DNA of 50,234 bases from Syntrophobacterales bacterium. GTDB taxonomy: Bacteria; Desulfobacterota; Syntrophia; Syntrophales; UBA5619. A model generated the notes under the pieces. It was not told the DNA's origin. It made no database searches and was given only the letters and a program-made list of their open reading frames with translations. Below are positions 11,988 through 50,234 of the stretch, in pieces. The stretch spans positions 1 through 50,234 of the forward strand of contig JAHYJE010000025.1 of assembly GCA_019429105.1 (NCBI GenBank). The letters run 5' to 3'. The position numbers and the translations under genes are program-made. Numbering within the stretch: position 1 is the first letter of the stretch; the number at the start of each line of letters is the position of its first letter.

Positions 11988-12154
11988 GTTATTATGTATT
12001 TTACAACGACGTATTGAAAATTTTGTCAGTAATAAAATAACCGGCGGTCAGGGAATCGCGCCGGAAGATATTTATCAAATAAAGCCTTGAATAACCAACA
12101 TAATGGTTGTATGTGGGCGAACAACAATCTCATTTCATATACATAGGCAGGTGT

Positions 12155-13475: not shown

Positions 13476-13494
13476 CAACAGGAGGCTCCCCAAA

Positions 13495-16911: not shown

Positions 16912-16925
16912 GGAATTGACACTCT

Positions 16926-20956: not shown

Positions 20957-21113
20957 CAACGAACGTCCCTGTAGCCGCAGAGGAATCTTCCATGCCTTTG
21001 CAGCGGACACCCTCGATAGCCGAAGAGGAAACCACAAATCTGATAAGAGCGGCTTCACATTTGACTGGGTCTTTCAAGTAGGGGTTGGTTTCGATCAAGG
21101 ATTTCTTTTTCAT
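20901..21113 (-). CDS. Fic antitoxin-like small protein with SSAIEG inhibitory motif
   Basis: A 70-residue minus-strand protein beginning MKKKSLIETNPYLKDPVKCE and continuing to VVSSSAIEGVR. SSAIEG (residues 30-35) fits the [S/T]xxxE[G/N] motif with which Fic antitoxins insert a glutamate into the ATP site of Fic. The rest (GMEDSSAATGTFVV, then a Lys/Arg-rich tail) is of unclear origin. Its last 56 nt overlap the end of fic tail-to-tail, which may explain the odd tail. ATG 21113 has no clear Shine-Dalgarno, but a near-perfect promoter places the transcript start at about the ATG, so a leaderless mRNA is likely. The pairing with Fic is strong by motif and location. The orientation is unusual, because class I antitoxins usually precede fic on the same strand. 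Confidence 0.75.
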   Translation of the reverse strand: MKKKSLIETNPYLKDPVKCEAALIRFVVSSSAIEGVRCKGMEDSSAATGTFVVKNPSSVRRPSKQKKANP

Positions 21114-21119
21114 GGCATT

Positions 21120-21148
21120 AGTATACAAAATAGGGAGAACTCTGTCAA
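21120..21148 (-). promoter_or_regulatory. Near-consensus sigma70 promoter of the antitoxin gene
   Basis: Read on the minus strand: TTGACA (21148-21143), a 17-nt spacer, TATACT (21125-21120). The expected transcription start, about 7 nt after the -10, falls on the ATG at 21113. It fires against the BREX/fic operon. Confidence 0.7.
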
Positions 21149-21177
21149 CGGATATGGACCAAAATTCTGATAACATT

Positions 21178-21209
21178 GGCCGCCTTGCTTGTGCTCTCTC
21201 TTGGCGGCC
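21178..21209. promoter_or_regulatory. Inverted repeat in the antitoxin/yhaO divergent region
   Basis: GGCCGCC at 21178-21184 and GGCGGCC at 21203-21209 form a perfect 7-bp dyad with an 18-nt loop, between the divergent antitoxin promoter and the nuclease gene. No T-run follows, so it is not a typical terminator. It could be an operator or a leader hairpin. Confidence 0.3.
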
Positions 21210-21281
21210 TGTTGGGGGAATGCCATGTTGGATGCCGTTCTCAAGTCAGCAGATAACCCAAACGGGTATAAGGAGTCTGCC

Positions 21282-22538: not shown

Positions 22539-25500
22539 GGTTTGAACGACTGCATATCCCCGCTTTCGGCCCGTTTACGAATCTGGATCTCACCTTTCCC
22601 GCGGACAGGGGTGATCTGCACGTCATTTATGGAGCCAACGAAGCAGGAAAAAGTTCTTTGCTCCGCGCTTTTCGAGATCTGCTCTTCGGCATACACGGCC
22701 AGTCGCCGGATAATTTCGTCCACGATTACAAGAAATTACGAATAAGGGGTGAGATCGTCAACCAGTCGGGGGAACGGCTTACCTTCCAACGCCGCAAGGG
22801 AAACAAGAACACCTTGCTGGACACCAATGGCAATGAATTGCCGGACAATGCTTTGATCCCGTTTCTGGGCAGCGTCGATCAGGAATACTTCTCCACGATG
22901 TTCGGCCTGGGTACGAGGGAACTCCGCGAAGGGGCGGAACAACTTCTCCAAGGCAAGGGGGATATCGGCAATGCTCTGTTCTCGGCCAGTATGGGAGGGA
23001 CCCCCATTCAACTGGTTCTCGCGACGCTGATCGAGGAAGCAGAAAGGCTCTTCAAAGGCCGTTCAACAGCCAATGTATCGATTCGCCCAGCAGTGAATGA
23101 TTACAAAGACCTCCTGCGCAAAAGCCGTGAAGCCATTGTAAACCCTGAGGCCTGGGAGAATATCGAAACAGCTTTAGCGAATGCCGGGGAGGCCAAAATC
23201 AAGCTCGAAGACGAGATTTCGGCATTTACAAAGGAACTGGAATGGATTGCCCGTTGTGAAGATGCGCTGCCTACCGTGGGGCGTTTAAGTGAGGAGATGC
23301 GGAAACTGGAAAATCTGCCTCCGATGCCTGAAGTTTCCAGTGATTTTATCGAGCGGGCGCGTGCCGCTCGTGAATCGGCAAGCGAAACCCAGGCGGAAGT
23401 TGACCGCCTAACGGCTCAGATCACCAAGCTCCAAGAGCTATTGGCAGGTTGCCAGACCTCACCGGCCCTCCTTGCCGATGCAGATGCACTAGACCGTTTA
23501 CACCAGGATCTGGGCGTTTATCGGGATCGCAAAAAAAACCTGACCGATTTGGAAACCGAAGTGGCTGGACTGGAAACGACCCTGCAGACGGGCATGCAGA
23601 ATCTGGGACTCACCGGAAGCATCCCGGAACTCGAGAAACTGCGGCTGAACACTGCCGATCGGCTCGCCTGTGAGGAAACCGCCGCGGCCCTTCAAAATGC
23701 CCAGAAGGAGCACGAGGAAAATATAAAGAAGACCGGCGATCTCAAGACGCAGATTGATACCCTGGAAACGCAGTTGCAGACCCTGCCGGAAACCGACATG
23801 ACCAAACTCCGAGACACCTTGTCCGTAGCGGCGGCAGCGACCGAAGCCAATCGCACACTTGCCTTGAGCGAATCCGAGGTGAAACGTCTTACCCTGGAGG
23901 CAAAAGAACGCCATCGGGAATTGATAGTAGCGCCAAAGGACCTGGACGCCACGGGAACTCTCGCGGTGCCGACCAAAGCAACCATCCGCAGTACCGGCGA
24001 GGAGATGGATGGGATATCCCGAGATATCAAGTCGGAGGAAGCGAAAGTTATTGACGGGACAAAGCAACTCGACTCCCTGAAAGCCGAACTTGGCCGGCTC
24101 GAACGCCGTGGAGAATTACCCACCGAGCAATCCATGCATAAAGCCAGAGAGCATCGGGATCACGGCTGGAGTCTCGTGCTGGCGGATTGGAAAGGTGACG
24201 GCTGCAAGGAAGAATTCATACCGGGAACGCCTCTGGAGGAAGCCTTTCCACAAACGATCCTCAAGGCAGACAACATTGCGGATCAGCTTCGCGAAGAGGC
24301 TGAGGCCGTAGCTCAGGCAGAGGAAAGGCGTTTCCAGATAACCCAAGTAGAAAAGCAAATTAAGGAGGCGAAAGAAAGAATTGTTGAATACCAGGATAGG
24401 TTGGAGAAATGCCAGGCCTCCTGGAAGTCATTATGGGCATGTTGTGAAATTGCACCGCAATCTCCTGCGGAAATGGAAGAATGGCGTGAAGCCTGGATTA
24501 AATTCAAAGATACCCTCCGTCAGTTGAGGGTCGCGGAAGAAGATTTCAAACGGAAAGGCGACCAAGTCCTTGAAGCGACAAAGCAACTTGCCGCGGTCCT
24601 TTCCGAACCTGAAGGAAAGGGTTATACGCTGCTTTTCGATAAGGCTCGGAGGCATGTCCAGAAGGGTGAAGAGACATCGGGGCGAAGAATCGAGCTGCTC
24701 AATCAAATCCAAGGACTGAACAGTCAATTGGAAACCTTTGAACAGAACAACGCACACTTCGCTGCGGCAGTCGAGGCTGCGACGAAAAAGTGGGATGCAC
24801 AGTGCCAACGGATCGGCATACCTAAAGACATTTCACCCAAATCCGGATTGGCACTTTTGCAGGAACGAAAAGAACTCCTCGTTAAATTCGATAGTTGGAA
24901 GAAAACCTCCACAACATTGCAGAAAACAAAGGATGCTGTGGAGCTATACGAGGAAGACGTAAAGGAAAAAGCCAGCGCCCTTGGTGCCGCGGGAGATACC
25001 ATAGAGGCTCAGGAAAATGATCTTTGGAAGAAATTGGCCAAAGCCCGCGCCGACCAAACGCGACATGAGCAATTTGTTAGCCAAATCGAAGAAGCGAAGG
25101 ATACCCTGGGAGAGAGTCAGACATCCCACAGCCAGGCGGTTCAGGCATTGGATGAGTTGATCCGGTTGGCAAAGATTGAAACGGTTGATGCACTTGAGCC
25201 ATTGCTTGCGAATCTGGAATTACGCAATCAGTCACAGAGTCAAATTGCCACATTCCGCGACACGCTAAGTGGCCTTGCGCGAGGCCAATCGGTAGACGAC
25301 TTTCTATCTCGAATTAGAGCGGAGGATGCCGAAGCACTTCCCCAGAGGAAGGCCACGATCCAGAGCCAAAAGAAAGAAAAGGAAACAGCGCTTCAGGCAG
25401 TTCGCGATACCTTGTACAACCTCAAAGGCCAAAGGCAGGCGCTTGAGGCTGCTGGAGATGCGGCGGCAAACTACCGGCAGCATGCCGAGTCATGCGCGGC

Positions 25501-26029
25501 GCGACTGAGGCAAGACGCTTCCCGTTTTGTACGCCTGTGCTTGGCAGCACATTTTCTGCAAACCCAGATCGAACGGTTCCGGAAAGAAAATCAAGGACCC
25601 TTGCTGGAGAAATCGGGTCAAGTGTTTCAAAGCATCACTCGGGGTGCATTTGGTGGGTTGGGTGCGGAATTTAATGCCGACGACACCCCTATCCTGGTGG
25701 GTTTGCACCCTGACCAGACTGCTGTTTCGATTGAAGGGATGAGTGACGGCACGAGGGATCAACTTTACTTAGCTCTTCGCCTGGCAGCCCTTGATCAATA
25801 TCTTGAGAAGCACGAGCCGATGCCCCTCATCCTCGATGATCTGTTGATTACCTGCGACAACGACAGAGCGGCGGCGATACTTCCAAAACTGGCCACACTG
25901 GCCCAGCGCACCCAGATATTTCTCTTCACCCACCACGACCATCTCGTCGAACTCTGCCGCAATACCTTAGGTGAAGGTGCTTTTCATCTTCATCAAATGA
26001 ATACTCAACCCAGTGCTATAGGGAATTGA
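22535..26029 (+). CDS. YhaN/SbcC/Rad50-like SMC-type ATPase
   Basis: A 1164-residue protein. The N-terminal ATPase lobe starts MRFERLHIPAFGPFTNLDL, with Walker A GANEAGKS at 33-40. A long alpha-helical coiled coil runs from about 190 to 1000, rich in Glu, Lys, Gln and Leu. The C-terminal lobe has the ABC signature GMSDGTRDQL near 1067 and Walker B LILDDLLI near 1097, then TQIFLFTHHDHLV. FGIHGQSPDNFVHDY after Walker A is typical of YhaN. No CxxC zinc hook is seen in the coiled coil, unlike Rad50 and unlike the second ATPase at 31882. It should form a complex with the overlapping nuclease upstream. At 1164 residues it exceeds the roughly 960 residues of B. subtilis YhaN because of the coiled coil. 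Confidence 0.88.
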   Translation: MRFERLHIPAFGPFTNLDLTFPADRGDLHVIYGANEAGKSSLLRAFRDLLFGIHGQSPDNFVHDYKKLRIRGEIVNQSGERLTFQRRKGNKNTLLDTNGNELPDNALIPFLGSVDQEYFSTMFGLGTRELREGAEQLLQGKGDIGNALFSASMGGTPIQLVLATLIEEAERLFKGRSTANVSIRPAVNDYKDLLRKSREAIVNPEAWENIETALANAGEAKIKLEDEISAFTKELEWIARCEDALPTVGRLSEEMRKLENLPPMPEVSSDFIERARAARESASETQAEVDRLTAQITKLQELLAGCQTSPALLADADALDRLHQDLGVYRDRKKNLTDLETEVAGLETTLQTGMQNLGLTGSIPELEKLRLNTADRLACEETAAALQNAQKEHEENIKKTGDLKTQIDTLETQLQTLPETDMTKLRDTLSVAAAATEANRTLALSESEVKRLTLEAKERHRELIVAPKDLDATGTLAVPTKATIRSTGEEMDGISRDIKSEEAKVIDGTKQLDSLKAELGRLERRGELPTEQSMHKAREHRDHGWSLVLADWKGDGCKEEFIPGTPLEEAFPQTILKADNIADQLREEAEAVAQAEERRFQITQVEKQIKEAKERIVEYQDRLEKCQASWKSLWACCEIAPQSPAEMEEWREAWIKFKDTLRQLRVAEEDFKRKGDQVLEATKQLAAVLSEPEGKGYTLLFDKARRHVQKGEETSGRRIELLNQIQGLNSQLETFEQNNAHFAAAVEAATKKWDAQCQRIGIPKDISPKSGLALLQERKELLVKFDSWKKTSTTLQKTKDAVELYEEDVKEKASALGAAGDTIEAQENDLWKKLAKARADQTRHEQFVSQIEEAKDTLGESQTSHSQAVQALDELIRLAKIETVDALEPLLANLELRNQSQSQIATFRDTLSGLARGQSVDDFLSRIRAEDAEALPQRKATIQSQKKEKETALQAVRDTLYNLKGQRQALEAAGDAAANYRQHAESCAARLRQDASRFVRLCLAAHFLQTQIERFRKENQGPLLEKSGQVFQSITRGAFGGLGAEFNADDTPILVGLHPDQTAVSIEGMSDGTRDQLYLALRLAALDQYLEKHEPMPLILDDLLITCDNDRAAAILPKLATLAQRTQIFLFTHHDHLVELCRNTLGEGAFHLHQMNTQPSAIGN

Positions 26030-26094
26030 CATCATGACGATACTTGAAATTGTGATAGATAAAACTTTTAAGAATCTAACAAGGAGAAGACCTT

Positions 26095-27081
26095 ATGCCC
26101 GCAAACGTTGATACGATGGCTTATGTCGGAGAAGTCCCATGGCACAAGCAAGGAAAACCTGTTCCACCTAACGTGACTGCAGAACAGATGATTCGGGCCG
26201 CCGGCTTGGACTGGACTGTTGAGAAACGACCTGCCAGAGGAACCAAGCCTACTGCCAACTCGCGAGGCAAAGAAATATTTTCACGTTACGAAATGGTTCG
26301 TATTCCCAAACCAAACAGCAAAGAGGAGGTCGTGGTTTTAGGGCTGGTCTCAGACCGTTATAAACCTCTTCAGAATTTAGAAGCATTTCAGTTTTTCGAT
26401 CCAATCGTGGACCGGAAAACCGCAACCTATGAGACAGCCGGTGCCTTGGGAGATGGCGAACGCATTTGGGTACTGGCAAAGATGCCAGGTGCCATTAAGG
26501 TGGTTCTCGGGGACGAGTGTCACAAGTATCTTCTCCTCTCCAACTCGCATACTGGACAAGGCTCCGTAATAGTAAAGTTTACAGCCGTTCGTGTAGTCTG
26601 CCAGAACACACTAACAATGGCAATGAAAGATGGACAATCCGCCTTTCGCGTGCGCCACAGCGCTAAGATGAGCGAGCGTTTAGATGAAGTAGGAGAGTTG
26701 ATCGCTGCTGCCAACCAAATTTATGAAGAAGCAGCTGAAAGTTTCAAAAGACTGGCAGCAACTCAGGTAAAAAACAAGCGAATGCTTGAAGAATATCTTG
26801 CTGCTTTATTTCCGAGAAGCGAACCCCAGAAAAAGACGGGAGCACATCCACCGAAATGGGATCACGTGACAGATTTGTTCGAGACCATCCCAGACCTGCA
26901 AATTAAGGGAGTTAAAGGAAGCTTTTGGGCGGCATACAATGCGGTCACACGATTTGAAGACTATCGAGTAGTACAGAACGAAAATGGTGCTAATCGGCTG
27001 AACCGTGTCTGGTTTGGTGCGGGCGCTGATCTTAAAAAAAAGGCGCTTACGGAAGCCTTACGGATGGCGGATAACAACTGA
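26095..27081 (+). CDS. DUF932 / phage-plasmid-like protein (TIGR03299 type)
   Basis: A 328-residue protein starting MPANVDTMAYVGEVPWHKQG, the recognisable opening of the DUF932 / TIGR03299 family found in phages, plasmids and islands. Other family-like segments are FSRYEMVRIP, LGLVSDRYKPLQNLEAFQFF and NTLTMAMKDG. Near the C-terminus GSFWAAYNAVTRFEDY appears. The function of the family is unknown; a DNA-linked role is often suspected. ATG 26095 has AAGGAGAAG upstream. It lies between the YhaN-like ATPase and pglZ on the same strand, ending 36 nt before pglZ, so it is probably co-transcribed with BREX. The gene and its upstream spacer look AT-richer than the pglX/brxC part, which suggests separate acquisition. 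Confidence 0.85.
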   Translation: MPANVDTMAYVGEVPWHKQGKPVPPNVTAEQMIRAAGLDWTVEKRPARGTKPTANSRGKEIFSRYEMVRIPKPNSKEEVVVLGLVSDRYKPLQNLEAFQFFDPIVDRKTATYETAGALGDGERIWVLAKMPGAIKVVLGDECHKYLLLSNSHTGQGSVIVKFTAVRVVCQNTLTMAMKDGQSAFRVRHSAKMSERLDEVGELIAAANQIYEEAAESFKRLAATQVKNKRMLEEYLAALFPRSEPQKKTGAHPPKWDHVTDLFETIPDLQIKGVKGSFWAAYNAVTRFEDYRVVQNENGANRLNRVWFGAGADLKKKALTEALRMADNN

Positions 27082-27117
27082 AAAATGGCGGTCGTTAATA
27101 TAGCTGGAGCAGAAAAC

Positions 27118-29424
27118 GTGACGATACTCGAATCCATACTGAAATATTTACGCAGCGCGGCCTCATATAACAAGCATGATCTGGCTCCACCCAGGGTCAT
27201 CCTCTGGCCCGACGAGGAGGGGCTCTGGAAGCGGTGTATCGAGCCGCTGCGGGCGAACTATCCGGCGTTGTGGTCGCTTGGAGATTATGCTCCCGACCAG
27301 ATGACGGGCCCGGCGGTCTGGCTGCGATATCAGTTGGAGGTGCATGAAGGCGAGGACATCCCAGTCATCTACCTGCCCGGCATCGGACGCTATGCTTTTC
27401 GCAGTGCAGAACAATTTCCGAATCAGGCAAGGCATCTATTTGCCCTGCAATTCCAGGGGCAATTCTGGACGCAGAAAAACGGAAAAGACTGGACGCCCTT
27501 TGCATTTTTTTCGAGTGTCGATGGCGGTCTCGGGCTGGAAATAGCAGGCAATCAGGACACAAGGAAGGCGATTCAGGAGAGCTTGCCAAAGCTTATGGAA
27601 GTGGAAATGGGGGCGCTCCGGGGGCACAAGCTGGAGGCGGGAGACTTCCGGGCGATCGTAACGAGGGATCCGGCGCAGACGCTTTTGAGATGGATGGGAA
27701 ATCCGGACAAAATCAGGATGGATCTGCAAGGGTCAGGGGCGGAATGGGAGAGCTTTTGCGCCGTCTGCCGGGCGGAATATCACTTTGACCCGGAGAAGGA
27801 TGGTGCGATCACCGCGGCGGAGAAGCTGGCCAGTAGCGCGCCTCCCTGGAAATTGGTATGGGCGCGCTACAAGGAGGCGCCACTTAACTATCCGGGAATC
27901 AAGGAGGCTCTTGAATTCGTAGTTCCCGGCGATCTTTTCCATGTGGTTGACGAGTTTAAGCCGAGCTATAACCAGAAAGATGAAGAACGTCTGGAAAAAG
28001 AGCTGCTTGCGCTATCTTCGGCATCGCCAAAGGATGCCATCGCGAAAATCAAAAAGCTGGCAGCCGCGCATGCCCATCGCTCCACCTGGGTTTGGGCCAC
28101 TTTAGGGGAAGCTCCGCTGGCTTTTGCCATAGGCCATCTGCAAGATTTGTCAGATGCTGTACAAACACCGGTAAATCCTTCAACTTGGAAAGGATTGGCG
28201 GATTATTACTCGACGCTTGGCTGGAAAGCCGACCGCAGTATGTTACGGGCTCTGGATGCAGCGCGCTCCTCCACGGCAGCCACAAAGGCGGTAACTGCCG
28301 CCATCCGGGCGGTTTATCCTGCGTGGCTCGAAAAGTTTTCCACGCTGCTCCAGGCTCTGGCGGCCACCTATCCCACCACAGGGCCGCAGTCCTGTCGTAC
28401 CTTGCCGGTTGAGGAAGGCACAGTCTATCTTTTTGCCGACGGTCTGCGTATGGATGTGGCCAAAGAGCTGGTAGAAAAACTTATCTTTGCTGAATTGGAT
28501 GTTGATTTCGAGCATGAATGGGCCGCGCTGCCGACGGTTACCGCAACCGCCAAGCCTGCATGGAAGCCGCTTGCCGGAAAATTGGAAGGCCCGCTGGAGG
28601 GGACAGGCTTTGAACCGAAAGAACGGGCAAACGGGAAGGCGCTTACCCACGCGCGCTTCAAACAACTTGTCGAAGAACTGGGGATAAACTTTCTGGTTGC
28701 TGATTCATCCCTTTTTCCAACTGGTTGCGCCTGGACGGAGTTCGGTTCCATTGACGACTATGGCCATCATGAGGGGGCAAAATTGGCGTGGAGAATTGAA
28801 GAAGAGCTGGCCGGATTACAGCAGCGAATAGTCGAACTCATTCAGGGGGGCTGGAAGAAAATCAAGGTAATCACGGATCACGGCTGGCTTTTACTACCCG
28901 GAGGGTTGCCGAAATCAGAATTGCCCAAGCATCTGACGGCATCCAAGTGGAGCCGTTGCGCCATCCCCGGGGCAGGCGCCAAGCACGGCTATCCGATGAC
29001 CTCATGGTTTTGGGACTCGGCCGAAGCCGTTGTCCTGGCCCCCGGTGTATCGTGCTTTACAGCCGGGATGGAGTATGCCCACGGCGGTCTTACCCTGCAG
29101 GAGGCCCTTATCCCCTCCTTGACAATATCCGCGAAGCAAACGGGCGCGGGGAATGCTGTTGTCCTCAAGGAGATTAATTGGGCGGGGATGAGGCTGTACG
29201 TGGTTTTTGAGGGTGCCGCTGGCTTAATCATTGATATTCGCGGGAAAGTTGCAGATGCCGGGACCAGCTTTGCCGCAAGCCCGATAGCCGTCGCGGCTGA
29301 TGGCGGCAAGACCAGCCTTCTTGTGGAAGATGACGGGGCGCTCGGCAAGGCGGCATTCCTCGTTATCGTTGATCAGAATGGCCAACCAATTTTCAAGCAG
29401 AATATAGTGATTGGAGAAAACTGA
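27118..29424 (+). CDS. pglZ: BREX phosphatase-like protein PglZ (type B-like)
   Basis: A 768-residue protein from GTG 27118 (GGAG about 8 nt upstream), giving the family start VTILESILKYLRSAASYN and then APPRVILWPDEEGLW. The frame is open to 27085, but the added residues are not family-like. The alkaline-phosphatase-superfamily core is visible as VYLFADGLRMDVAKEL near 440, ITDHGWLLLPGGLPK near 590 and YAHGGLTLQEALIPSL near 655. The layout matches the roughly 750-residue type B PglZ of BREX-1 loci, not the longer type A. PglZ is essential for BREX and probably acts with PglX in DNA modification. No interruption is visible. It overlaps nothing, and brxL starts 1 nt after its stop. Confidence 0.9.
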   Translation: MTILESILKYLRSAASYNKHDLAPPRVILWPDEEGLWKRCIEPLRANYPALWSLGDYAPDQMTGPAVWLRYQLEVHEGEDIPVIYLPGIGRYAFRSAEQFPNQARHLFALQFQGQFWTQKNGKDWTPFAFFSSVDGGLGLEIAGNQDTRKAIQESLPKLMEVEMGALRGHKLEAGDFRAIVTRDPAQTLLRWMGNPDKIRMDLQGSGAEWESFCAVCRAEYHFDPEKDGAITAAEKLASSAPPWKLVWARYKEAPLNYPGIKEALEFVVPGDLFHVVDEFKPSYNQKDEERLEKELLALSSASPKDAIAKIKKLAAAHAHRSTWVWATLGEAPLAFAIGHLQDLSDAVQTPVNPSTWKGLADYYSTLGWKADRSMLRALDAARSSTAATKAVTAAIRAVYPAWLEKFSTLLQALAATYPTTGPQSCRTLPVEEGTVYLFADGLRMDVAKELVEKLIFAELDVDFEHEWAALPTVTATAKPAWKPLAGKLEGPLEGTGFEPKERANGKALTHARFKQLVEELGINFLVADSSLFPTGCAWTEFGSIDDYGHHEGAKLAWRIEEELAGLQQRIVELIQGGWKKIKVITDHGWLLLPGGLPKSELPKHLTASKWSRCAIPGAGAKHGYPMTSWFWDSAEAVVLAPGVSCFTAGMEYAHGGLTLQEALIPSLTISAKQTGAGNAVVLKEINWAGMRLYVVFEGAAGLIIDIRGKVADAGTSFAASPIAVAADGGKTSLLVEDDGALGKAAFLVIVDQNGQPIFKQNIVIGEN

Positions 29425-29425
29425 T

Positions 29426-31471
29426 ATGCAACTCGACCCACTGGACCAAATCGCTGCCAAGGCATTTGAAGGATATCTTGTACGTAAAGACCTCGTGCGC
29501 CAATTCAAAGGCCAATATCCGGTGCCCACCTATGTGGCTGAGTTTCTGCTTGGGCGATATTGTGCAAGCGTAGATGAGTCGGAAATCCAGGAAGGGCTTG
29601 CCATCGTGCAAAGGCAACTGGCCAGCCGAACGGTCCGCGCGGGCGAGGAAGAACTCTTCAAGGCCCGCGCCAAAGAGCAGGGGCGCGTGAAACTTATCGA
29701 TCTTATCAAGGCTCGGTTGGATGCCAAAAACGACTGTTTTCTGGCCGAACTCCCCAGTCTTCGGCTCAATGATGTTCGCATCGCGGATGATCTGGTCAAT
29801 ACGCATGATCGCATGCTGACGGGAGGTTTTTACGCGGAGGTAGATCTCACTTACGATCCCGGCATCGCTGAAGAAAAGAATGGACGCCCGTTCGGTATCG
29901 AATCCCTGCGCGAAATCCAGCTCTCGAAGAGCGACGTGCTGGAAGCCCTGTGCAAAGGGAGACTTCTCTTCACGTTCAAGGAATGGAGGGATTTGCTCCT
30001 TCGCAGCGTGGGGCTGGAACCTTCAATTCTCGGAGACCGAACGTGCGATGTCATGCTTCTCCGCATGGTCCCGTTTGTAGAGAATAATTATAATGTGGTG
30101 GAACTTGGCCCCCGGGGTACAGGCAAGAGCCACCTTTACCAGCAGGTGTCGCCTTACGCACATCTTGTCTCAGGTGGCAAGGCCACCGTCGCAAAAATGT
30201 TCGTCAACAACGCCAATGGCCAGCGCGGCCTCGTTTGCCAATATGACGTGGTTTGCTTCGACGAAGTGTCCGGTATCTCCTTCGACCAGAAGGACGGCGT
30301 GAACATCATGAAGGGATACATGGAGTCGGGGGAATTCAGCAGGGGCAAGGAGAGCATCCGCGGCTTTGGTGGGATAGTCATGGTAGGCAACTTCGAAGTC
30401 GATGTGGAACATCAGCAACGCATCGGACACCTCTTCGGACCGCTCCCGCCGGAGATGCGCGACGACACGGCATTTATGGATCGCATTCATTCCTACATTC
30501 CCGGCTGGAACGTGCCAAAAGTGAGTCGAGAGCAGTTGACCGAACATTTCGGTCTGGTCAGCGATTACGTTTCCTCGTGCTGGAACCATCTGCGTTCTCA
30601 AAGCCGGGTTAACAAACTCCAGGGTCGTATCCAATTCGGAGGCGCCTTGAGCGGACGCGACACATCGGCAACGCATAAGACGATGAGTGGGCTTCTCAAA
30701 CTGATGTTTCCTGATCCGGAAGCCGACATCCCCGACGACGCCATCGAATGGGCCGCCAAACTTGCACTGGAATGTCGCCGCAGGGTGAAGGAACAGCAGA
30801 AGCGCATCGGGGCTGCCGAATTCCGAAACACCCATTTCAGTTTCACCATGATCCCCGATGGGATGGAACAATTCGTCTCCACACCTGAGCTCCACAACGA
30901 GAACAGCATCGGTAGCGACCCGCTCGCTGCCGGACAGGTATGGGCATTATCCCCAGGCAGCACGGGTGAAAATCCGGGCCTGTTCCGCATTGAAGTAACT
31001 GAAGGTCCGGGAAGCGGGGTGAAAATTCTTAATCAAAGCCCTCCGGGGCCGCTCAAGGAGAGCGTCCGCTGTGCCGAACAGAATCTCTATGCCCGGGCAA
31101 AGGAGCTGGTCGGTGATCGCGATCCGCGATCGCACGAGTTCACCATTCAATTCCGCGCCTTTGATGCCTGCAAGAGTGCTGCGGCTACAGGGATGCCCAT
31201 CCTGCTCGCTATGAGTTCCGCGCTTGTCGAGCGTAGCCTGGAAGGCGGACTCGTCATCGTCGGCGGGCTCAATCTCGGGGGATCCATCGAGCCCATTTAC
31301 AACGCCGTTAGTATTATTGAACTGGCTGCCGATAAAGGCGCGCAAAAAATCCTCATGCCAGTCTCTGCCCGCAAGCAACTCTTCGAATTACCGGATGACT
31401 TGGCCACCAAGGTCACTGTCGTCTATTACGCGGATGCAAAGGACGCCCTGCTCAAGGCGCTCAGTGAGTGA
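29426..31471 (+). CDS. brxL: BREX AAA+ / Lon-like protein BrxL
   Basis: A 681-residue protein from ATG 29426 (GGAG about 10 nt upstream; a TTG at 29411 is an alternative). The N-terminus DQIAAKAFEGYLVRKDLVR is the BrxL opening. The AAA+ domain has Walker A GPRGTGKSH near 228 and Walker B VVCFDEVSG near 275, followed by the sensor region IVMVGNFEVDVEHQQR. The C-terminal 200 residues form the Lon-protease-like domain (HEFTIQFRAFDACKSAAATG through LVIVGGLNLGGSIEP). BrxL marks type 1 BREX and is a DNA-binding AAA+ hexamer required for phage exclusion but not for methylation. The gene is intact. It ends the BREX operon, and a MITE begins 57 nt later. Confidence 0.93.
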   Translation: MQLDPLDQIAAKAFEGYLVRKDLVRQFKGQYPVPTYVAEFLLGRYCASVDESEIQEGLAIVQRQLASRTVRAGEEELFKARAKEQGRVKLIDLIKARLDAKNDCFLAELPSLRLNDVRIADDLVNTHDRMLTGGFYAEVDLTYDPGIAEEKNGRPFGIESLREIQLSKSDVLEALCKGRLLFTFKEWRDLLLRSVGLEPSILGDRTCDVMLLRMVPFVENNYNVVELGPRGTGKSHLYQQVSPYAHLVSGGKATVAKMFVNNANGQRGLVCQYDVVCFDEVSGISFDQKDGVNIMKGYMESGEFSRGKESIRGFGGIVMVGNFEVDVEHQQRIGHLFGPLPPEMRDDTAFMDRIHSYIPGWNVPKVSREQLTEHFGLVSDYVSSCWNHLRSQSRVNKLQGRIQFGGALSGRDTSATHKTMSGLLKLMFPDPEADIPDDAIEWAAKLALECRRRVKEQQKRIGAAEFRNTHFSFTMIPDGMEQFVSTPELHNENSIGSDPLAAGQVWALSPGSTGENPGLFRIEVTEGPGSGVKILNQSPPGPLKESVRCAEQNLYARAKELVGDRDPRSHEFTIQFRAFDACKSAAATGMPILLAMSSALVERSLEGGLVIVGGLNLGGSIEPIYNAVSIIELAADKGAQKILMPVSARKQLFELPDDLATKVTVVYYADAKDALLKALSE

Positions 31472-31528: not shown

Positions 31529-31648
31529 GAGCCAATTGCAAAACTCCTTCTGCGTCATTCCGGCGAAAGACGGATTCCAGTCTTTTCAGTCCGTTCTGGG
31601 CCCCGACTTTCGCCGGGGCGACGGATAAGCTTATTTTGCAATTGGCTC
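31529..31648. repeat. MITE-like element, copy B, with perfect 15-bp inverted ends
   Basis: GAGCCAATTGCAAAA (31529-31543) and its exact reverse complement (31634-31648) bound a 120-bp element. Inside are CGTCATTCCGGCGAAAGACG and CCCCGACTTTCGCCGGGG hairpin arms. It shares ends and internal order with the element at 6308-6468. No obvious target duplication flanks it. It separates BREX from the RecQ module, and its hairpins may end BREX transcription. Confidence 0.8.
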
Positions 31649-31690: not shown

Positions 31691-31885
31691 ATGAGTACGC
31701 AAGAAATATTGATGATATTCAACGACAATTTAAATGCCCTGACAGATAGAAATAAGTACAGTATGGGAATTGAAGATGCGGATCATGAGAAAGCATTGTA
31801 TGCGCTGGAATTAGCGCTGGAGAATCCTTCCCTTTCCCCGGCAAGACTGTTTGACATTATTGCCGGCGAAAGAACCGTGCGATGA
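31691..31885 (+). CDS. 64-aa protein of unknown function, first gene of the RecQ module
   Basis: A small acidic protein starting MSTQEILMIFNDNLNALTDR and ending SLSPARLFDIIAGERTVR. It looks mainly helical and has no motif I recognise. Its reality is supported by a strong GGAGGAGAAG ribosome site before ATG 31691 and by an ATGA overlap with the ATPase gene, a typical coupled pair. It could be a regulator, an inhibitor or a small subunit of the ATPase. Nothing in the sequence decides. Confidence 0.7.
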   Translation: MSTQEILMIFNDNLNALTDRNKYSMGIEDADHEKALYALELALENPSLSPARLFDIIAGERTVR

Positions 31886-33663
31886 GATTAAAGCAACTTG
31901 TCGTAAAAAACATCGGCGTATTCTCCGGCACTCGGCGATTCGATTTTGATGATAATCTGACAGTAATTTACGGGAAGAATTTTTCCGGGAAATCGACTCT
32001 GGCACGGGCTCTCTATTTTTCCTTGTGCGGAAAAATTCTGAATACAGGAATTACATCAAAAGACATCGTTGCCGTTGGCATGAATAGCGGAACGGTCGGG
32101 ATAACTTATATTATTCGCGACAAGCTCTGTCGCCTTTACCGATCCACAAAAGGAGATGTGCAGGAGGAGTTTTTCACGGATCAAAGATGGCATCCAAGCG
32201 AAGGATCGGCGCTTCCGCAGCTTAATTTTCATCAATGGAAAGTGGGATATTTCCTGAAAGAAGAAGAATTGGGCGAATTTCTCACTCAAACACCTGCTAA
32301 CCGCAGGGACCTCCTTCACAAATTGCTCGGTGTCGAAAATTTGATGGCTGCCAGGGACATGTTTGTCAACTTTCGCCGTTATTCCAAAAGCCTTGAAAAA
32401 ATGTCTGCGGCCAGGCGAAGCGCCTTGTCTTCCGGTACCGGTGCTGATTGCGCCGAGGAATTGAAGGAACGACTCAAAGAGGTTAGAGCACTGGAAGAAA
32501 GAATTGACATGGGGAATGGTAGGGATGAAAATTATCGCCTGTTCGTTGAGCTGGAAAAAACGAGGGCGGCGTTCTCTTCCAGGCGAGAGGTGATATTGGA
32601 AGAAATAAAGAAATCACTATCAGATTTCAACGACGTTACTGAATTGAATGATATACTGAAAGAACTTGCCAATCGTCTTGCTCTTCGCGACCAATACCTG
32701 AAACAGATATCGACTCAACAGGGAATGCGCACCGCCTTGATAAATCAGTTGAAAAATGAAGACATCCTGATTTCCTCGCTTCATAAAACGCAAAAAAATC
32801 AAGTATGTCCCACCTGTCTGCAAATCATATCACCCGATCAGCGTAACAAACTTCTTGACGATATAGAGAATAGGAAACTGTTACTGGCAAAAGAAATACA
32901 GAAAACAGAATCAACCGAGAAGGAATTAAGCAAGGCCCTGTATTTGCTCGACCAGCTTACAGAAAAATATGCTGATCTTAAGGAACGATCCGCAAGATTG
33001 CAGCATTTTAACCAGGAACTTGACGAAAATGAACAACAACTGACGGAATTATCCAGGAAGATCGACCTGATTGCCCGGAACGCCGACTGCGAGGAATCTC
33101 TCGAACTCCGGAATAAGTTGGAAAGATCAAAGGAATCATTGAAGGTTCTGGAGACTGAGCATGCGTTATTCGAACGCCGGCAGCTTGAAATTAAAAAAGC
33201 GGATGCTGAAATGCTCACGACATCCCATAATCGACTCTTTTCGGAATGGATAACGGACGCTCTCGATATGACCATCAAATCAACAATGGGGGTGTCTCTT
33301 CGCCAAGTCGAAAGGGGAATTCAGGGATGTCTGAAAAGTTTTGATTTACTGCGCGGACAAAATGCTACTCTCAATCTGGAAAAGACCCAATTGCTTCCCG
33401 ACTTTGAGAATCGCAATTTCCATTCGCTGTCAGGAAGTGAAAAAGGAATTTTGTATCTTGCTTTGAAAGTTGAAATTTCCCGTCTTATGCAGGGGAGTGA
33501 TTTTATGGTACTGGACAGCCCGAGCGTTTATCTTGATGAACTGCGCCGTGAACGTTTGCGTGATTATCTTTTGTCGTTAACACCCGGAAAACAGATTATC
33601 CTTCTTACCAATGATCTCAATTTTGCTAATCTGATGACAGATGGAACGAGAATCAATCTATGA
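31882..33663 (+). CDS. Rad50/SbcC-like ATPase with zinc hook
   Basis: A 593-residue SMC-type ATPase, about half the length of Rad50 or SbcC. The N-terminal lobe MRLKQLVVKNIGVFSGTRRF has Walker A GKNFSGKST at 31-39. A short coiled coil is interrupted by the zinc hook Cys312-Pro-Thr-Cys315. The C-terminal lobe has the signature SLSGSEKGI near 516 and Walker B FMVLDSPS near 541. In Walker B the usual catalytic Glu is replaced by Ser (DSP), as in some prokaryotic ABC-type defence ATPases, so hydrolysis may be slow or altered. No Mre11-like nuclease accompanies it. Instead the stop overlaps the recQ start (ATGA at 33660). It is probably a DNA-end or DNA-structure sensor working with the helicase. 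Confidence 0.85.
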   Translation: MRLKQLVVKNIGVFSGTRRFDFDDNLTVIYGKNFSGKSTLARALYFSLCGKILNTGITSKDIVAVGMNSGTVGITYIIRDKLCRLYRSTKGDVQEEFFTDQRWHPSEGSALPQLNFHQWKVGYFLKEEELGEFLTQTPANRRDLLHKLLGVENLMAARDMFVNFRRYSKSLEKMSAARRSALSSGTGADCAEELKERLKEVRALEERIDMGNGRDENYRLFVELEKTRAAFSSRREVILEEIKKSLSDFNDVTELNDILKELANRLALRDQYLKQISTQQGMRTALINQLKNEDILISSLHKTQKNQVCPTCLQIISPDQRNKLLDDIENRKLLLAKEIQKTESTEKELSKALYLLDQLTEKYADLKERSARLQHFNQELDENEQQLTELSRKIDLIARNADCEESLELRNKLERSKESLKVLETEHALFERRQLEIKKADAEMLTTSHNRLFSEWITDALDMTIKSTMGVSLRQVERGIQGCLKSFDLLRGQNATLNLEKTQLLPDFENRNFHSLSGSEKGILYLALKVEISRLMQGSDFMVLDSPSVYLDELRRERLRDYLLSLTPGKQIILLTNDLNFANLMTDGTRINL

Positions 33664-36413
33664 AAAGTGAGATAGAAGAAATAATGGAAATGTTTGATAA
33701 GACAATTTCCGGAAATGATCCTCTTCCCGAAGAAATGATTTGCAATACCAATCCGGATGTCGAACAGCGCAGTCAATACCGGACAATTCTAAAGACTATC
33801 TTTGGTTACGATACGTTCTGGCCTCTTCAGGAAAAAGTTATTGCTCATATATTGGAGAAAAAGGACGCCTTGGTAGTAATGCCTACCGGGGGCGGCAAGT
33901 CCCTTTGTTATCAGATTCCAGGAATGATTTTTGAGGGACTGACGATCGTGGTTTCTCCTCTGATTTCCCTCATGAAAGACCAGGTGGACCAGTTGTGGGA
34001 AAATGGCGTTCCCGCCCTTTTTCTGAACAGCTCCCTGAGTATGGAGGAATACCGGGATAATGTGACAAGGCTCAGGGACAATTCCGTCAAATTCCTGTAC
34101 CTCTCCCCGGAAGCATTGCAGGCGACGCGAATGCTGGCCCTGCTGGCCGAGTTTAAGGTGGATTGCCTGGCCATTGACGAAGCCCATTGCATCTCCGAGT
34201 GGGGACACGATTTTCGCCCGGAATACCGGATGCTTGCCGATGCCCGCCGCGCTTTTCCCTCTGCCTGTTGCGTTGCGCTCACGGCCACGGCCACACCGCG
34301 CGTGCGGGCGGATATCAGGCAATTTCTCAATATCGACAAAAAGAGCGAGTACGTCGGTTCCTTCAACAGGCCGAATCTCTTTCTGGAAGTGGCGCCGAAG
34401 ACCGAGCCCCTCAAAAAGGCGCTGGCCTTGATCGAAAGATATCAAAACGAATCGGGAATAATTTACTGCGGCAGCCGTCGCCAGACGGAAGAACTCTACC
34501 GCATCCTTCTGGACAGGGGATATTCGGTGCGGCCCTACCATGCGGGTTTGTCGGATAAAGAACGTCGGGAGAACCAGGAACGCTTCAGCCGCGACGACAT
34601 CCGGATCATAGTAGCTACAATTGCCTTCGGCATGGGGATTAACAAACCCAATGTCCGGTTTGTTATCCACTATGATTTGCCCGCGAGCATCGACAACTAC
34701 TACCAGGAGATCGGCCGGGCCGGACGGGATGGCCTCCCTGCGCATTGTCTTCTTCTGTTCGGGTATGGCGATATTCAAAAAGTGAAGTTTTTTATCAGAC
34801 AAAAAAACGCTTCGGAACAACAGGTGAGCAATGTCCTTCTGAAAAATCTCATTGGGTTTGCTGAGACTCACCTCTGTCGGCGGATCCCCCTGTTGAATTA
34901 TTTTGGCGAAACCGATGGTCCGGACCGTTGTGATATGTGCGACAATTGCAGGACGAGGAAAACAGCAAAGGAATTAGACAATCTAAATGTTCCCGAGCAT
35001 ATGCGCCTCTCCGATTTGCATAAAGTGGAGAGGGGAGAAACGACCTTTTCCGGAAGGCTGGAAGTTGTAAAAAAAGACCGGGGAGATTCCTTAAACCAAA
35101 ATAAAAATGAGCTTATGCCGTCTGATGTGGTCCTTTTTGAAATGTTAAGGGAAAAACGCAAGGAAATCGCCAATCAGAAAAATGTTTACCCGTTTTTCAT
35201 TTTCTACGATCGTACCTTGATAGAAATGGCCACATATTACCCCGTTACTCGTGAAAGTTTATCGATGCTCTATGGGATGAGCAGCAGAAAATTGGAAGAA
35301 TACGCCGATACTTTTCTTGATATCATCAAAGAACATTGTGAAATAAATGATATACAGGAACAGCCAAAAATTGCGCCAATACCGGAATCAGCCTTCATGC
35401 CTTTGCACGAAAGCGGTTCAGACCGTCATCTTGTCACTGGCGAACTGTTTAATCAGAGTAAAAACATTAAACAACTGGGAGAAATTCTTAACATTCAGCA
35501 GGAAACGGTACTCAAGCATCTCTATCAGTGCCTCCGTGAAAAACATACCTTCCGTGAGAACGATTTTCTGATTGACTCCAAGTTGACGGGGGAACAGCAG
35601 CAAGCGGTGTTGCAGGCATTTGCCCGCCTGGGGACAGAGCGTCTTCGCCCTGTCTTTGAGGATTTGAAAGGGACGATTTCTTATAATGAGCTGCACCTCT
35701 TACGACTGTACCATTTATGCCGGGTGAACAATCGTCCGGTGAATCGCAAAGACTTTATCTGCCTGGCCGTATCCCGGAAATACGGCGGCTACTGTCTGGC
35801 GGGCAAGGCGTGGAATAGTGGAAAGGTCGGGGCATGGATTCGACCGGTAAGCAGCCGGGGCACCGGCGAACTTTCCAGGGAAGAGATAATTTTCGATAAC
35901 GGCGTGATCCCGAAATGCATGGATATCATCAGCATCGATGTTCAAGGCGTCAAGGAACATCCTTACCAGAAGGAAAATTTTCTGATTGGAGAAAAGAGTC
36001 CCTGTGCTTGGCAATGGAAATTGCCTTATTCGGCACTTCCCGATATGGCGGATGACGTAAGCGATCTCTGGATGACCGGTTTTCACGGTGTAACAGACAT
36101 GCATGACCGCGTGTCCGAAGAGGAGTTGAAAAAGGCTGCACCTCCTTCGCTATATCTGATCAAACCTGATTTTTTTACCCTGCTGGTGGCGGATGATCTT
36201 TTTGCAAGGAAAAAAGTTCGGGCCAGGTTCTCATACCGGGGAACAACTTACACCCTTTCGGTGACCGATCCCGTCATCGAAAAAACGTATCTCATGAAGC
36301 AGCGGGGCGAATACCCTTTGAGCGATCAGGAGATTTACCTGACAATCAGCATGGGGGAGCCATTCAATGGCTATTGCTACAAACTGATTGCCGCAGTGAT
36401 TACAATGGAATAG
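33660..36413 (+). CDS. RecQ-family helicase with long C-terminal extension (probable dual-OB domain)
   Basis: A 917-residue protein, about 300 longer than housekeeping RecQ. The helicase core has Walker A MPTGGGKSLCYQIPG near 74, DEAH in AIDEAHCISEWGHDFRPEY near 173, and motif VI EIGRAGRDG near 350. A zinc-binding segment (CDMCDNC near 424, with Cys near 404) follows. An HRDC-like domain lies around 485-565. A winged or HTH-like region lies around 585-690. The last 200 residues, from ICLAVSRKYGGYCLAGKAWN, resemble the dual-OB (DuOB) domain seen in DNA-processing and defence contexts; that assignment is from memory. The gene is coupled by ATGA to the Rad50-like ATPase and is 12 nt from the first DUF488 gene. 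It is not the only possible RecQ of the organism. The neighbours suggest a specialised role. Confidence 0.88.
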   Translation: MKSEIEEIMEMFDKTISGNDPLPEEMICNTNPDVEQRSQYRTILKTIFGYDTFWPLQEKVIAHILEKKDALVVMPTGGGKSLCYQIPGMIFEGLTIVVSPLISLMKDQVDQLWENGVPALFLNSSLSMEEYRDNVTRLRDNSVKFLYLSPEALQATRMLALLAEFKVDCLAIDEAHCISEWGHDFRPEYRMLADARRAFPSACCVALTATATPRVRADIRQFLNIDKKSEYVGSFNRPNLFLEVAPKTEPLKKALALIERYQNESGIIYCGSRRQTEELYRILLDRGYSVRPYHAGLSDKERRENQERFSRDDIRIIVATIAFGMGINKPNVRFVIHYDLPASIDNYYQEIGRAGRDGLPAHCLLLFGYGDIQKVKFFIRQKNASEQQVSNVLLKNLIGFAETHLCRRIPLLNYFGETDGPDRCDMCDNCRTRKTAKELDNLNVPEHMRLSDLHKVERGETTFSGRLEVVKKDRGDSLNQNKNELMPSDVVLFEMLREKRKEIANQKNVYPFFIFYDRTLIEMATYYPVTRESLSMLYGMSSRKLEEYADTFLDIIKEHCEINDIQEQPKIAPIPESAFMPLHESGSDRHLVTGELFNQSKNIKQLGEILNIQQETVLKHLYQCLREKHTFRENDFLIDSKLTGEQQQAVLQAFARLGTERLRPVFEDLKGTISYNELHLLRLYHLCRVNNRPVNRKDFICLAVSRKYGGYCLAGKAWNSGKVGAWIRPVSSRGTGELSREEIIFDNGVIPKCMDIISIDVQGVKEHPYQKENFLIGEKSPCAWQWKLPYSALPDMADDVSDLWMTGFHGVTDMHDRVSEEELKKAAPPSLYLIKPDFFTLLVADDLFARKKVRARFSYRGTTYTLSVTDPVIEKTYLMKQRGEYPLSDQEIYLTISMGEPFNGYCYKLIAAVITME

Positions 36414-36425
36414 TGAGGTTTATAA

Positions 36426-37010
36426 ATGCCTGAAATATTTACAATCGGCCATTCCGTCCATTCGCTTGAGCGCTTTCTTGAGCTGTTGAAAATGCACGAC
36501 ATCACGGCTGTATGCGACGTAAGATCGAGTCCCTGGAGCCGTTATACGCCCCATTTCAACCGCGAATCGCTGAAGGACGAACTGGCGAAGCAGCGCATCA
36601 GCTACATTTACCTGGGCCTGGAACTGGGGCCGCGCAGCGATGACCCGACCTGCTATGAAAAGGGCAAGGTGCAATACAAGCGCCTTGCCGACCGGGAAAT
36701 CTTTCAACGGGGGCTTGCCCGTCTGCGCAACGGGATGACTGCATACCGCATTGCGCTCTTGTGCGCTGAAAAGGAACCCCTCACCTGTCACCGGATGCTG
36801 TTGGTTTGTCGGTATTTGCGCGCTGATGATCTCGTTATCAGGCATATTCTCGAAGATGGCGCCATAGAGGACAACAGGGATTCCGAAGAGCGCCTGATGA
36901 AACTATTGAAAATCGATCCCGTCAACCTGATTTCAACAAGAGCGGAGCAAATCGAACGGGCCTATGACATACAGAGTGGAAAAATTGCCTACACCCTGGA
37001 GGAGGGGTGA
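36426..37010 (+). CDS. DUF488 protein (first of two)
   Basis: A 194-residue DUF488 protein. Family landmarks are FTIGHS at 5-10, VCDVRSSPWSRYTPHF at 29-44, and LLCAEKEPLTCHR at 111-123, with conserved Cys113 and the CHR motif. A C-terminal extension of about 50 residues ends SGKIAYTLEEG. The biochemical role of DUF488 is not established. The genes often sit near DNA repair or defence genes. It starts 12 nt after the RecQ stop, and its own stop lies 1 nt before the next DUF488 start. The two copies differ strongly, so they arose by old duplication, not by recent tandem copying. Confidence 0.85.
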   Translation: MPEIFTIGHSVHSLERFLELLKMHDITAVCDVRSSPWSRYTPHFNRESLKDELAKQRISYIYLGLELGPRSDDPTCYEKGKVQYKRLADREIFQRGLARLRNGMTAYRIALLCAEKEPLTCHRMLLVCRYLRADDLVIRHILEDGAIEDNRDSEERLMKLLKIDPVNLISTRAEQIERAYDIQSGKIAYTLEEG

Positions 37011-37011
37011 C

Positions 37012-37458
37012 ATGACGGACAAGATTACGGTATTTACGATAGGTTTTACAAAAAAGACGGCGGAGGAGTTTTTTACGCTGTTGATGAAGGCCGGCGTCAA
37101 GCGAGTGATCGATATCCGACTCAACAATGTCTCCCAACTGGCCGGGTTCGCCAAGCGGGAAGACCTGCGCTATTTCCTGCGGGCAATCGGCGGGATCGAT
37201 TATCTGCATCGTCCCGATTTGGCGCCGACGCAGCAGATACTTGATGAATTCAAGAAAAACAAGGGGAGCTGGCCGGATTACGAGCGGGATTTTCTGGCAT
37301 TGCTTCTTGCAAGAAAGGCCGAGCTGAACATAACCCCCGAACTGCTCGATGAGGGGTGCCTGTTGTGCAGCGAGGATAAGCCGCTCCACTGCCATCGCCG
37401 GCTCGTCGCCGAATATCTGCGGTCAAAGTGGGGAAACGTGGGGATCATTCACCTTTGA
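37012..37458 (+). CDS. DUF488 protein (second of two, shorter)
   Basis: A 148-residue protein from ATG 37012 (GGAGGGG just upstream; the longer frame from 36964 lies inside the previous gene and is rejected). It has VFTIGFTKKTAEEFF at the start, RVIDIRLNNVSQLAGF where the first copy has DVRSSPWSR, and LLCSEDKPLHCHRRLVAEYL at the end. It belongs to the branch with IDIRLN..S. The conserved C..E..P..CHR set is kept. It is the last gene of the RecQ module and ends 117 nt before lysS. Two different DUF488 branches side by side suggest a heterodimer or two linked steps, which is an inference. Confidence 0.85.
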   Translation: MTDKITVFTIGFTKKTAEEFFTLLMKAGVKRVIDIRLNNVSQLAGFAKREDLRYFLRAIGGIDYLHRPDLAPTQQILDEFKKNKGSWPDYERDFLALLLARKAELNITPELLDEGCLLCSEDKPLHCHRRLVAEYLRSKWGNVGIIHL

Positions 37459-37574: not shown

Positions 37575-39077
37575 ATGGAAGAGGAAAATGAACTGCTGAA
37601 AAAACGTCGGGAAAAGGCCGACTTGCTGAAGAGAGATGGGATAGATCTCTATCCGAACGACGTTCAGGTTGCCAATAATTCGGAAGCAATCAAGGGACGT
37701 TTGGAAAATTTATCCGAAGAAGAGCTTGGTAAAATTGACGAACGCTTTACCCTTGCCGGGCGCATCATGGCCATCCGCGATTTCGGCAAGAGCGCCTTCG
37801 TCAGCATTCAGGACCGCAAGGGGCGAATCCAGGCCTTTCTGCGCAAAAACGCACTGGGGGAAAAGGGATTTTCACTTTTCAAGAAACTCGACGCCGGGGA
37901 CGTAGTCTGGATAGCGGGGCGAATTTTCAAGACCAAAACCGGCGAGTTATCGATAGACGTGGAGGAAAACGGCCTGCGCCTGCTTTCCAAATCGCTGCTG
38001 CCCTTGCCGGAGAAATGGCACGGTCTGACCGACGTGGAGATTCGCTACCGCCAGCGCCACCTTGATTTGATCGTCAACCCCGAGGTGCGCAAGGTGTTTC
38101 AGCAGCGCAGCCGCATTATCAGCCTGATTCGCCGGTTCATGGAGGAGCGTGATTTCCTGGAAGTCGAAACCCCGATGATGCAGCCCAAGGCGGGCGGCGC
38201 GGTGGCCCGACCGTTCAAAACCTTTCACAACGCGCTGGGGATGAATCTTTTTCTGAGAATAGCCCCGGAACTGTACCTGAAGCGCCTGATAACCGGCGGT
38301 TTGGAAAGGGTTTTCGAGATCAACCGCAATTTCCGGAACGAGGGAATCTCCACCTTTCACAACCCCGAATTCACGATGATGGAGTTCTATCAGGCCTACG
38401 CGACCTATGAGGAGCTGATGACGATGACGGAGGAACTGTTCGGCTGTATCGCCATGAACCTGTTTTCTTCGCTTCAGTTCAACTATCAGGGAAACGAGAT
38501 AAATCTGACGCCCCCCTGGCGGAGAATAACCGTTCGGGATGCCGTCCTCGAGATAGGCGGCGTCAAGCCGGAAATTCTTGACGATCCGGCGCTGATGGCC
38601 CAATATGCGGGGAAACTCGGCGTTCAGTTGCAAGCAAGCGACCCTCCCGGCAAGGTTTTGATGGCAATCTTTGACGAAACGGTGGAAAAAAGGCTGATTC
38701 AGCCCACCTTTGTCACCCATTACCCGGTGGAGGTCTCTCCTCTCTCCCGCCGGAACGTCGCGGATCCCTCCGTTACCGACCGCTTTGAACTCTACATCGC
38801 CGGCAGAGAAATCGCCAATGCCTTCTCGGAGTTGAACGACCCGGTCGATCAGCGCCAAAGGTTCGAGCAGCAGATCAAGGAGCGGGAGGCGGGCGATCTG
38901 GAGGCCCACGAAATGGATGAGGACTATATCGGCGCCCTTGAATACGGGATGCCGCCGACCGCTGGCGAGGGGATCGGCATTGACCGGCTGGTCATGCTGA
39001 TGACCGACTCCGCCTCCATCCGGGACGTGATTCTCTTTCCGCTTCTGCGAAGCAGGGAAGCCGCCAGGGAAGAATAA
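37575..39077 (+). CDS. lysS: Lysyl-tRNA synthetase, class II
   Basis: A 500-residue class II LysRS. The N-terminal OB-fold anticodon-binding domain (about 58-150) contains FTLAGRIMAIRDFGKSAFVS. The catalytic domain has motif 1 around EVETPMMQPKAGGAVARPF, motif 2 FEINRNFRNEGISTFHNPEF, and motif 3 GEGIGIDRLVML near 470. It charges tRNA-Lys in the cytoplasm. It begins the downstream operon, and its TAA overlaps the lolC ATG (TAATG). In related Desulfobacterota lysS precedes lolC in the same way (from memory). Confidence 0.97.
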   Translation: MEEENELLKKRREKADLLKRDGIDLYPNDVQVANNSEAIKGRLENLSEEELGKIDERFTLAGRIMAIRDFGKSAFVSIQDRKGRIQAFLRKNALGEKGFSLFKKLDAGDVVWIAGRIFKTKTGELSIDVEENGLRLLSKSLLPLPEKWHGLTDVEIRYRQRHLDLIVNPEVRKVFQQRSRIISLIRRFMEERDFLEVETPMMQPKAGGAVARPFKTFHNALGMNLFLRIAPELYLKRLITGGLERVFEINRNFRNEGISTFHNPEFTMMEFYQAYATYEELMTMTEELFGCIAMNLFSSLQFNYQGNEINLTPPWRRITVRDAVLEIGGVKPEILDDPALMAQYAGKLGVQLQASDPPGKVLMAIFDETVEKRLIQPTFVTHYPVEVSPLSRRNVADPSVTDRFELYIAGREIANAFSELNDPVDQRQRFEQQIKEREAGDLEAHEMDEDYIGALEYGMPPTAGEGIGIDRLVMLMTDSASIRDVILFPLLRSREAAREE

Positions 39078-50109: not shown

Positions 50110-50234
50110 GTGCGGCCGGGCAAGGTCGCGTAATCAAGCGGGTGAAAGTCCCGCCCCGGAAGGAAGGCCATCCACCGGGTAGCGAGTCCTTGGAGGCTGA
50201 TTGGTAACAGTCAGTTTTAAGCGTAGGACAGCAA
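50110..50234 (+). mobile_element. 5' end of a bacterial group II intron (truncated by the window edge)
   Basis: The sequence begins GTGCGGCC, the consensus 5' splice start of group II introns. It continues with the domain I pattern AAGCGGGTGAAAGTCCCGCC, CGGAAGGAAGGCC, ACCGGGTAGCGAGTCC and GGTAACAGTCAG typical of bacterial introns. The reverse transcriptase gene and domains II-VI would lie beyond the window. It is in the sense orientation of msbA and 23 nt after its stop. Confidence 0.8.

Follow-up and report, generated by a model that had tools for sequence, protein, structure and literature searches.

We found that a five-gene operon in a Syntrophobacterales bacterium is a rare RecQ-fused form of the catalogued candidate PDC-M45, led by a 64-residue protein (p64) and a Rad50-like ATPase. 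The operon lies in the window, a stretch of 50,234 nucleotides of contig JAHYJE010000025.1. The interpretation that we tentatively prefer, with a confidence that falls a little short of even, is a mobile DNA-targeting anti-phage or anti-plasmid system, in which a RecQ-fused PDC-M45 has gained a p64-ATPase cassette and DNA ends are altered by the two DUF488 proteins. The five genes are:

31691 to 31885, plus strand: p64, 64 residues, of no known family, which leads the upstream cassette
31882 to 33663, plus strand: short Rad50/LmuB-like ABC ATPase, 593 residues, with a 4-nt ATGA overlap with p64
33660 to 36413, plus strand: RecQ-HRDC-HTH_40-DuOB protein, 917 residues, with an ATGA overlap with the ATPase gene
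36426 to 37010, plus strand: DUF488-B (PDC-M45B), 194 residues, after a 12-nt gap from RecQ
37012 to 37458, plus strand: DUF488-C (PDC-M45C), 148 residues, after a 1-nt gap from DUF488-B

All five open reading frames are where the initial annotation had placed them, chained by the ATGA overlaps and the gaps of 12 nt or less that it described. Pfam detected SMC_N (2.7e-10) and AAA_23 in the ATPase, and DUF488 in both the first (3e-24) and the second (2e-22) of the last two proteins. The RecQ protein has the DEAD, Helicase_C, RecQ_Zn_bind (zinc-binding) and HRDC domains of a RecQ, together with HTH_40 and DuOB (1e-54). Compared with locus L047, dN/dS was 0.21 for p64, 0.20 for the ATPase and 0.13 for the N-terminal part of RecQ. 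Thus p64 and the ATPase are under purifying selection (dN/dS about 0.2) and are maintained proteins, and with the Pfam matches these values indicate that the five reading frames are not due to chance. The conserved start of DUF488-C in the alignment is the ATG at 37012, and the alternative start at 36964 is unsupported. A scan for promoters and terminators performed no better than chance.

PADLOC matched the DuOB domain (residues 697-913 of the RecQ protein) to PDC-M45A (9.6e-63) and the two DUF488 proteins to PDC-M45B (4.8e-77) and PDC-M45C (6.3e-69). The long C-terminal extension of the helicase, said earlier to resemble a dual-OB domain, is therefore DuOB, and the two proteins downstream of it are DUF488 proteins as proposed. 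The three components are adjacent, in the order A-B-C that is common to most relatives. Because all of them match, the gene set is partly catalogued: the description of the operon as an undescribed module may hold for the p64-ATPase-RecQ form but does not hold for DuOB, DUF488-B and DUF488-C, which are PDC-M45 and are common without a Rad50-like ATPase. The operon differs from PDC-M45 in that DuOB is fused here to RecQ-HRDC-HTH_40 and is preceded by p64 and the ATPase. The PDCs are putative candidates that came out of guilt-by-embedding screening, and most of them lack validation (PMC12988326); among the papers searched, none names PDC-M45.

We collected 61 DuOB loci, including plasmids and viral contigs, and nearly all of them adjoin DUF488-B, DUF488-C or both. 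Among the 155 genomes searched in the order DuOB was present in 15, and among the 395 searched in the phylum in 17; PDC-M45B-like genes, orphan DUF488 genes included, occurred in 25 of 61 close relatives. A search of viral contigs with DUF488-B alone returned nothing. DuOB is joined to RecQ at 16 loci; L068 is broken, the gene order at L098 and L099 is B-C-RecQ-DuOB, and on two plasmids that we inspected DUF4326 stands in third place. The p64-ATPase cassette was found in two of the 155 genomes of the order, and when 84,980 species were scanned genome-wide with two peptide patterns, one further contig, L047, was added; diverged ATPase relatives may escape a scan with only these two patterns. 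At all three loci p64, the ATPase and RecQ stand in the same order, L047 being counted by its RecQ since its contig stops before the DuOB region. In the search for the ordered gene set that had been proposed as a check, p64-ATPase-RecQ recurs at three loci, and the strict five-gene set is rare (3 loci). L047 (DYRX01000342.1), which carries the closest cassette copy, is labelled Victivallis vadensis although Syntrophales genomes hold the remaining copies; mis-binning of this contig is possible.

The upstream side was readable at 12 RecQ-DuOB loci; the cassette occupies it at three and the ATPase is absent from the other nine. The slot holds AbiEi-AbiEii at L028, a PIN protein at L026 and PtuA-PtuB at L030, where recQ probably starts in an ATGA overlap with ptuB. 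PtuAB is thus directly upstream of RecQ-DuOB in the place of the cassette, but the Septu ATPase belongs to another family, and Septu includes an HNH nuclease. The L030 stretch at 1417-11252 holds PtuA-PtuB leading straight into RecQ-DuOB-DUF488-B-C and then, on the opposite strand, a gene for a 1360-residue protein with RecQ-like and UvrD-like (GajB-like) parts.

Two features of the window RecQ bear on its link to the cassette. An N-terminal extension of about 43 residues, starting MK.EIE.IMEMFD, occurs at all three ATPase loci, and none of the other RecQ-DuOB proteins examined has it; together with the ATGA overlaps and purifying selection, this sequence pattern argues for coupling of the cassette to RecQ. 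The three RecQs also cluster in a tree of the helicase core, with weak support. On the other hand, at third positions p64, the ATPase and roughly the first 0.4 kb of recQ diverge from L047 by about 0.24, and the remainder of recQ by about 0.48. This step in synonymous divergence, inside recQ at about 34050, suggests recombination, and with it that the rest of recQ does not share the history of the cassette and the recQ start. The RQC winged-helix domain, which relatives retain between the zinc and HRDC domains, is absent from the window RecQ, where an in-frame deletion has removed about 70 residues compared with L046, L047 and other relatives; its loss may have weakened the helicase.

The ATPase contains a Walker A motif (GKNFSGKS), a signature motif (LSGSE), a zinc hook (CPTC at residues 309-312) and the Walker B motif FMVLDSPSVYLD, and motif inspection bears out the 593-residue length, CPTC hook and DSP-type Walker B noted at the outset. 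In Walker B (LDSPS) the catalytic Glu is replaced by Ser: solved Rad50 structures match the ATPase at 9e-14 with their LDEPT aligned to LDSPS, and the homologue at L046 has Asn at this position. Head domains and a zinc hook are common to the ATPase and Rad50/SbcC, but the protein here has 593 residues and has lost the catalytic Glu, and its operon is without Mre11. Pfam found no Mre11/SbcD nuclease partner in the five-gene operon; the earlier statement that the ATPase has no such partner is correct within these limits, but the neighbouring BREX operon includes an Mre11-like phosphoesterase accompanied by a YhaN-like ATPase of its own. The best PADLOC match of the ATPase was LmuB (7e-30, full length), and Rad50 and other SMC-like families matched too. 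A search of viral contigs with the ATPase gave no match. Its predicted structure, from a three-sequence alignment, had a pLDDT of 61.8 and a pTM of 0.30 and was left out of the fold search. For p64, Pfam, PADLOC and further searches gave no family match, and homologues occupy the same position at L047 (83%) and L046 (53%).

Both DUF488 proteins combine a Pfam DUF488 match with an invariant Cys and CHR. The invariant residues are C113, E115 and C121-H122-R123 in DUF488-B (alignment, n=26) and C119-S-E and C127-H128-R129 in DUF488-C (alignment, n=24). When solved structures were searched by sequence, DUF488-B matched nothing and DUF488-C drew only chance matches. The DUF488-B model, whose alignment left out one row from a plasmid record, had a pLDDT of 89 and a phosphatase-like fold. 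It aligned with the dual-specificity phosphatases KAP (Z 8.1, rmsd 3.9, 132 residues) and laforin (Z 8.0, rmsd 3.6, 130 residues), with the tetrapyrrole methylase CbiL (Z 8.3, rmsd 3.5, 122 residues) and, lower in the ranking, with a baculovirus RNA 5'-phosphatase (Z 6.9). Foldseek returned nothing below 1e-3 with this model. As Z scores of 7-8 are middling, these results support membership of the rhodanese-phosphatase superfamily rather than prove it. In the model C113 appears at the end of a strand, before the helix starting at H122-R123, which would be the place of a phosphatase cysteine.

DUF488 is widespread, and we know of no measured activity for it. In 2023 Burroughs and Aravind reportedly described a RapZ-C/DUF488/DUF4326 clade of the rhodanese-phosphatase superfamily, with DNA-end processing predicted in conflict systems. 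DUF488 families are common to that clade and the module, and the plasmid versions pair DuOB-DUF488 with DUF4326. DUF4326 has been proposed to act on terminal ribose phosphates (PMC9503650). With tblastn, DUF488-C matched 136 plasmid records. Plasmid relatives at L175, L176, L179 and L181 (54-59% identity) adjoin UvrA or UvrB and formaldehyde-detoxification genes, and one examined plasmid region was without this neighbourhood. The UvrA or UvrB genes that accompany these relatives point to DNA as the substrate. A second, decayed copy of DUF488-B/C, at 17776-18592 of L036 (contig C26 of genome G000), retains DUF488-C intact, at 87% identity, and of DUF488-B only a C-terminal remnant.

The surroundings of the operon in the window are:

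7398 to 7811, minus strand: ssb, left flank of the insertion
7812 to 37574, no strand assigned: insertion with BREX and the module, from comparison of the ssb-lysS gap
12107 to 31471, plus strand: BREX operon (BrxA, BrxC, PglX, PglZ, BrxL; PADLOC, Pfam), with extra genes inside
20294 to 20956: Fic protein, inside the BREX operon
21189 to 26029: Mre11-like metallophosphoesterase and a 1192-residue YhaN-like ATPase (AAA_27), between PglX and PglZ
26095 to 27081: DUF932 protein, inside the BREX operon
37575 to 39077, plus strand: lysS, right flank of the insertion

The BREX operon reported beside the module was recovered by PADLOC. The gap between the divergent neighbours ssb and lysS is 29.8 kb here, compared with 107-373 bp in ten relatives and 3.9 kb in one, so BREX and the module lie within one inserted stretch, which may have been assembled in several steps. 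The same-genus genome G001 has different sequence upstream of lysS. With the insertion absent from relatives and the p64-ATPase-RecQ order kept at three loci, the co-oriented module does belong to a mobile defence island, as had been suggested. A reading frame at 6363-7829, considered as a conserved gene upstream of lysS, was rejected as an antisense shadow of ssb. Between brxL and p64 is a palindromic MITE-like element (31529-31648) with perfect 15-bp terminal inverted repeats; another copy in the genome is nearly complete (78%), and about 20 other matches are partial. The window ends within a group II intron-like RNA (Rfam RF02005), of which it contains only the start (50145-50234).

Defence genes also adjoin DuOB at other loci. 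The neighbours at individual loci include CBASS with HORMA, type III CRISPR with Csm6 and Csx16, IetAS with BrxL, type I RM, PglXI, PtuAB and AbiEii. On two viral contigs, L140 (6614-8435) and L141 (6557-8435), DuOB-DUF488-B-DUF488-C is inside BREX, between PglX and PglZ. The module genes are not BREX core genes, their best PADLOC matches being to other families. A BREX-specific link was rejected as a general rule, as BREX genes were detectable by BLAST at only 5 of the 61 DuOB loci, although two of these five have the trio inside the operon.

We then weighed these data against other explanations. A mobile DNA-targeting defence system is favoured because the trio is conserved on chromosomes, plasmids and viral contigs, has defence neighbours and lies here in the ssb-lysS insertion. 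A coupled cassette is favoured because the gene order is the same at three loci, the genes are under purifying selection and the RecQ N-terminal extension is limited to those loci. The nine of 12 loci without the ATPase, the divergence step in recQ, the loss of RQC and the middling fold scores count against this interpretation. One alternative is two stacked systems, a complete PDC-M45 (RecQ-DuOB-DUF488-B-C) and an independent p64-ATPase plug-in, either a Lamassu/Septu-like sensor remnant or a small system of its own, whose translation just upstream would be coincidental. The replacement of the cassette by PtuA-PtuB, AbiEi/AbiEii or a PIN protein, the trio without the ATPase at nearly all loci and the divergence step all speak for such stacking, but the RecQ extension is found only with the ATPase, p64-ATPase has no accompanying effector gene, and the distant ATPase relatives in the phylum, L173 and L174 (25% identity), have no RecQ, DuOB or DUF488 neighbour. 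We consider stacking somewhat unlikely.

A mobile module for DNA repair or lesion tolerance, in which RecQ and the ATPase would deal with breaks or cross-links while the DUF488 proteins clean up damaged termini, is quite improbable in our judgement. RecQ and Rad50 are repair families and the UvrA/UvrB and formaldehyde-detoxification neighbours of the plasmid DUF488-C relatives fit such a role, but the DuOB trio is found next to defence operons or embedded in them and, here, within an insertion, and its distribution in the order and the phylum is patchy. The ATPase by itself recalls Lamassu: like LmuB of Lamassu/ABC-3C, with which it aligns over its full length, it is short and SMC-like with a hook and an altered Walker B, and a hook and a Walker-B Glu-to-Gln change have been reported for LmuB (PMC10586767). 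In a Lamassu-type abortive infection system RecQ-DuOB and DUF488 would take the place of LmuA and kill through host DNA or nucleotides. However, PADLOC matched none of the five proteins to the effector LmuA or to LmuC; a helicase and DUF488 proteins are present instead, the gene order is different and the trio is self-standing elsewhere, which leaves this explanation very unlikely.

Returning to the preferred defence system, we observed directly its gene content and conservation, the signs of coupling, its mobility and defence neighbourhood and the intact active-site residues; antiviral activity and each biochemical step are what we infer. ATPase dimers joined at the zinc hook would clamp DNA ends or hairpins of replicating phage DNA, with p64 as a putative small partner. 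With Ser or Asn in place of the Walker-B Glu, the ATPase would probably be slow or unable to hydrolyse ATP. The N-terminal extension of RecQ, present only with the ATPase, may dock the helicase, which would unwind the DNA while DuOB holds the exposed strand or end. The DUF488 pair, with its predicted rhodanese/phosphatase-type fold and Cys...CysHisArg active sites, could then modify the phosphate or sugar at the terminus, which would prevent extension, joining or packaging of the DNA end. A bolder proposal, and in our view a rather unlikely one, is a form of immunity not recognised before: DNA ends would pass from an ATP-locked Rad50-like clamp to a dedicated RecQ, a phosphatase-fold DUF488 pair would chemically cap or remodel the termini, and upstream sensors, among them the Rad50-like ATPase and PtuAB, would be interchangeable on a common RecQ-DuOB-DUF488 unit.

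The DuOB pairing, the RecQ fusion, the defence neighbourhood and the plasmid relatives beside UvrA/UvrB and formaldehyde genes point to DNA ends or lesions as the substrate of DUF488, and the RecQ-fused forms offer a compact operon for testing DUF488 enzymes. Should sensor cassettes prove to be swapped on a shared processing unit, the module would clearly exemplify plug-in design in prokaryotic immunity.
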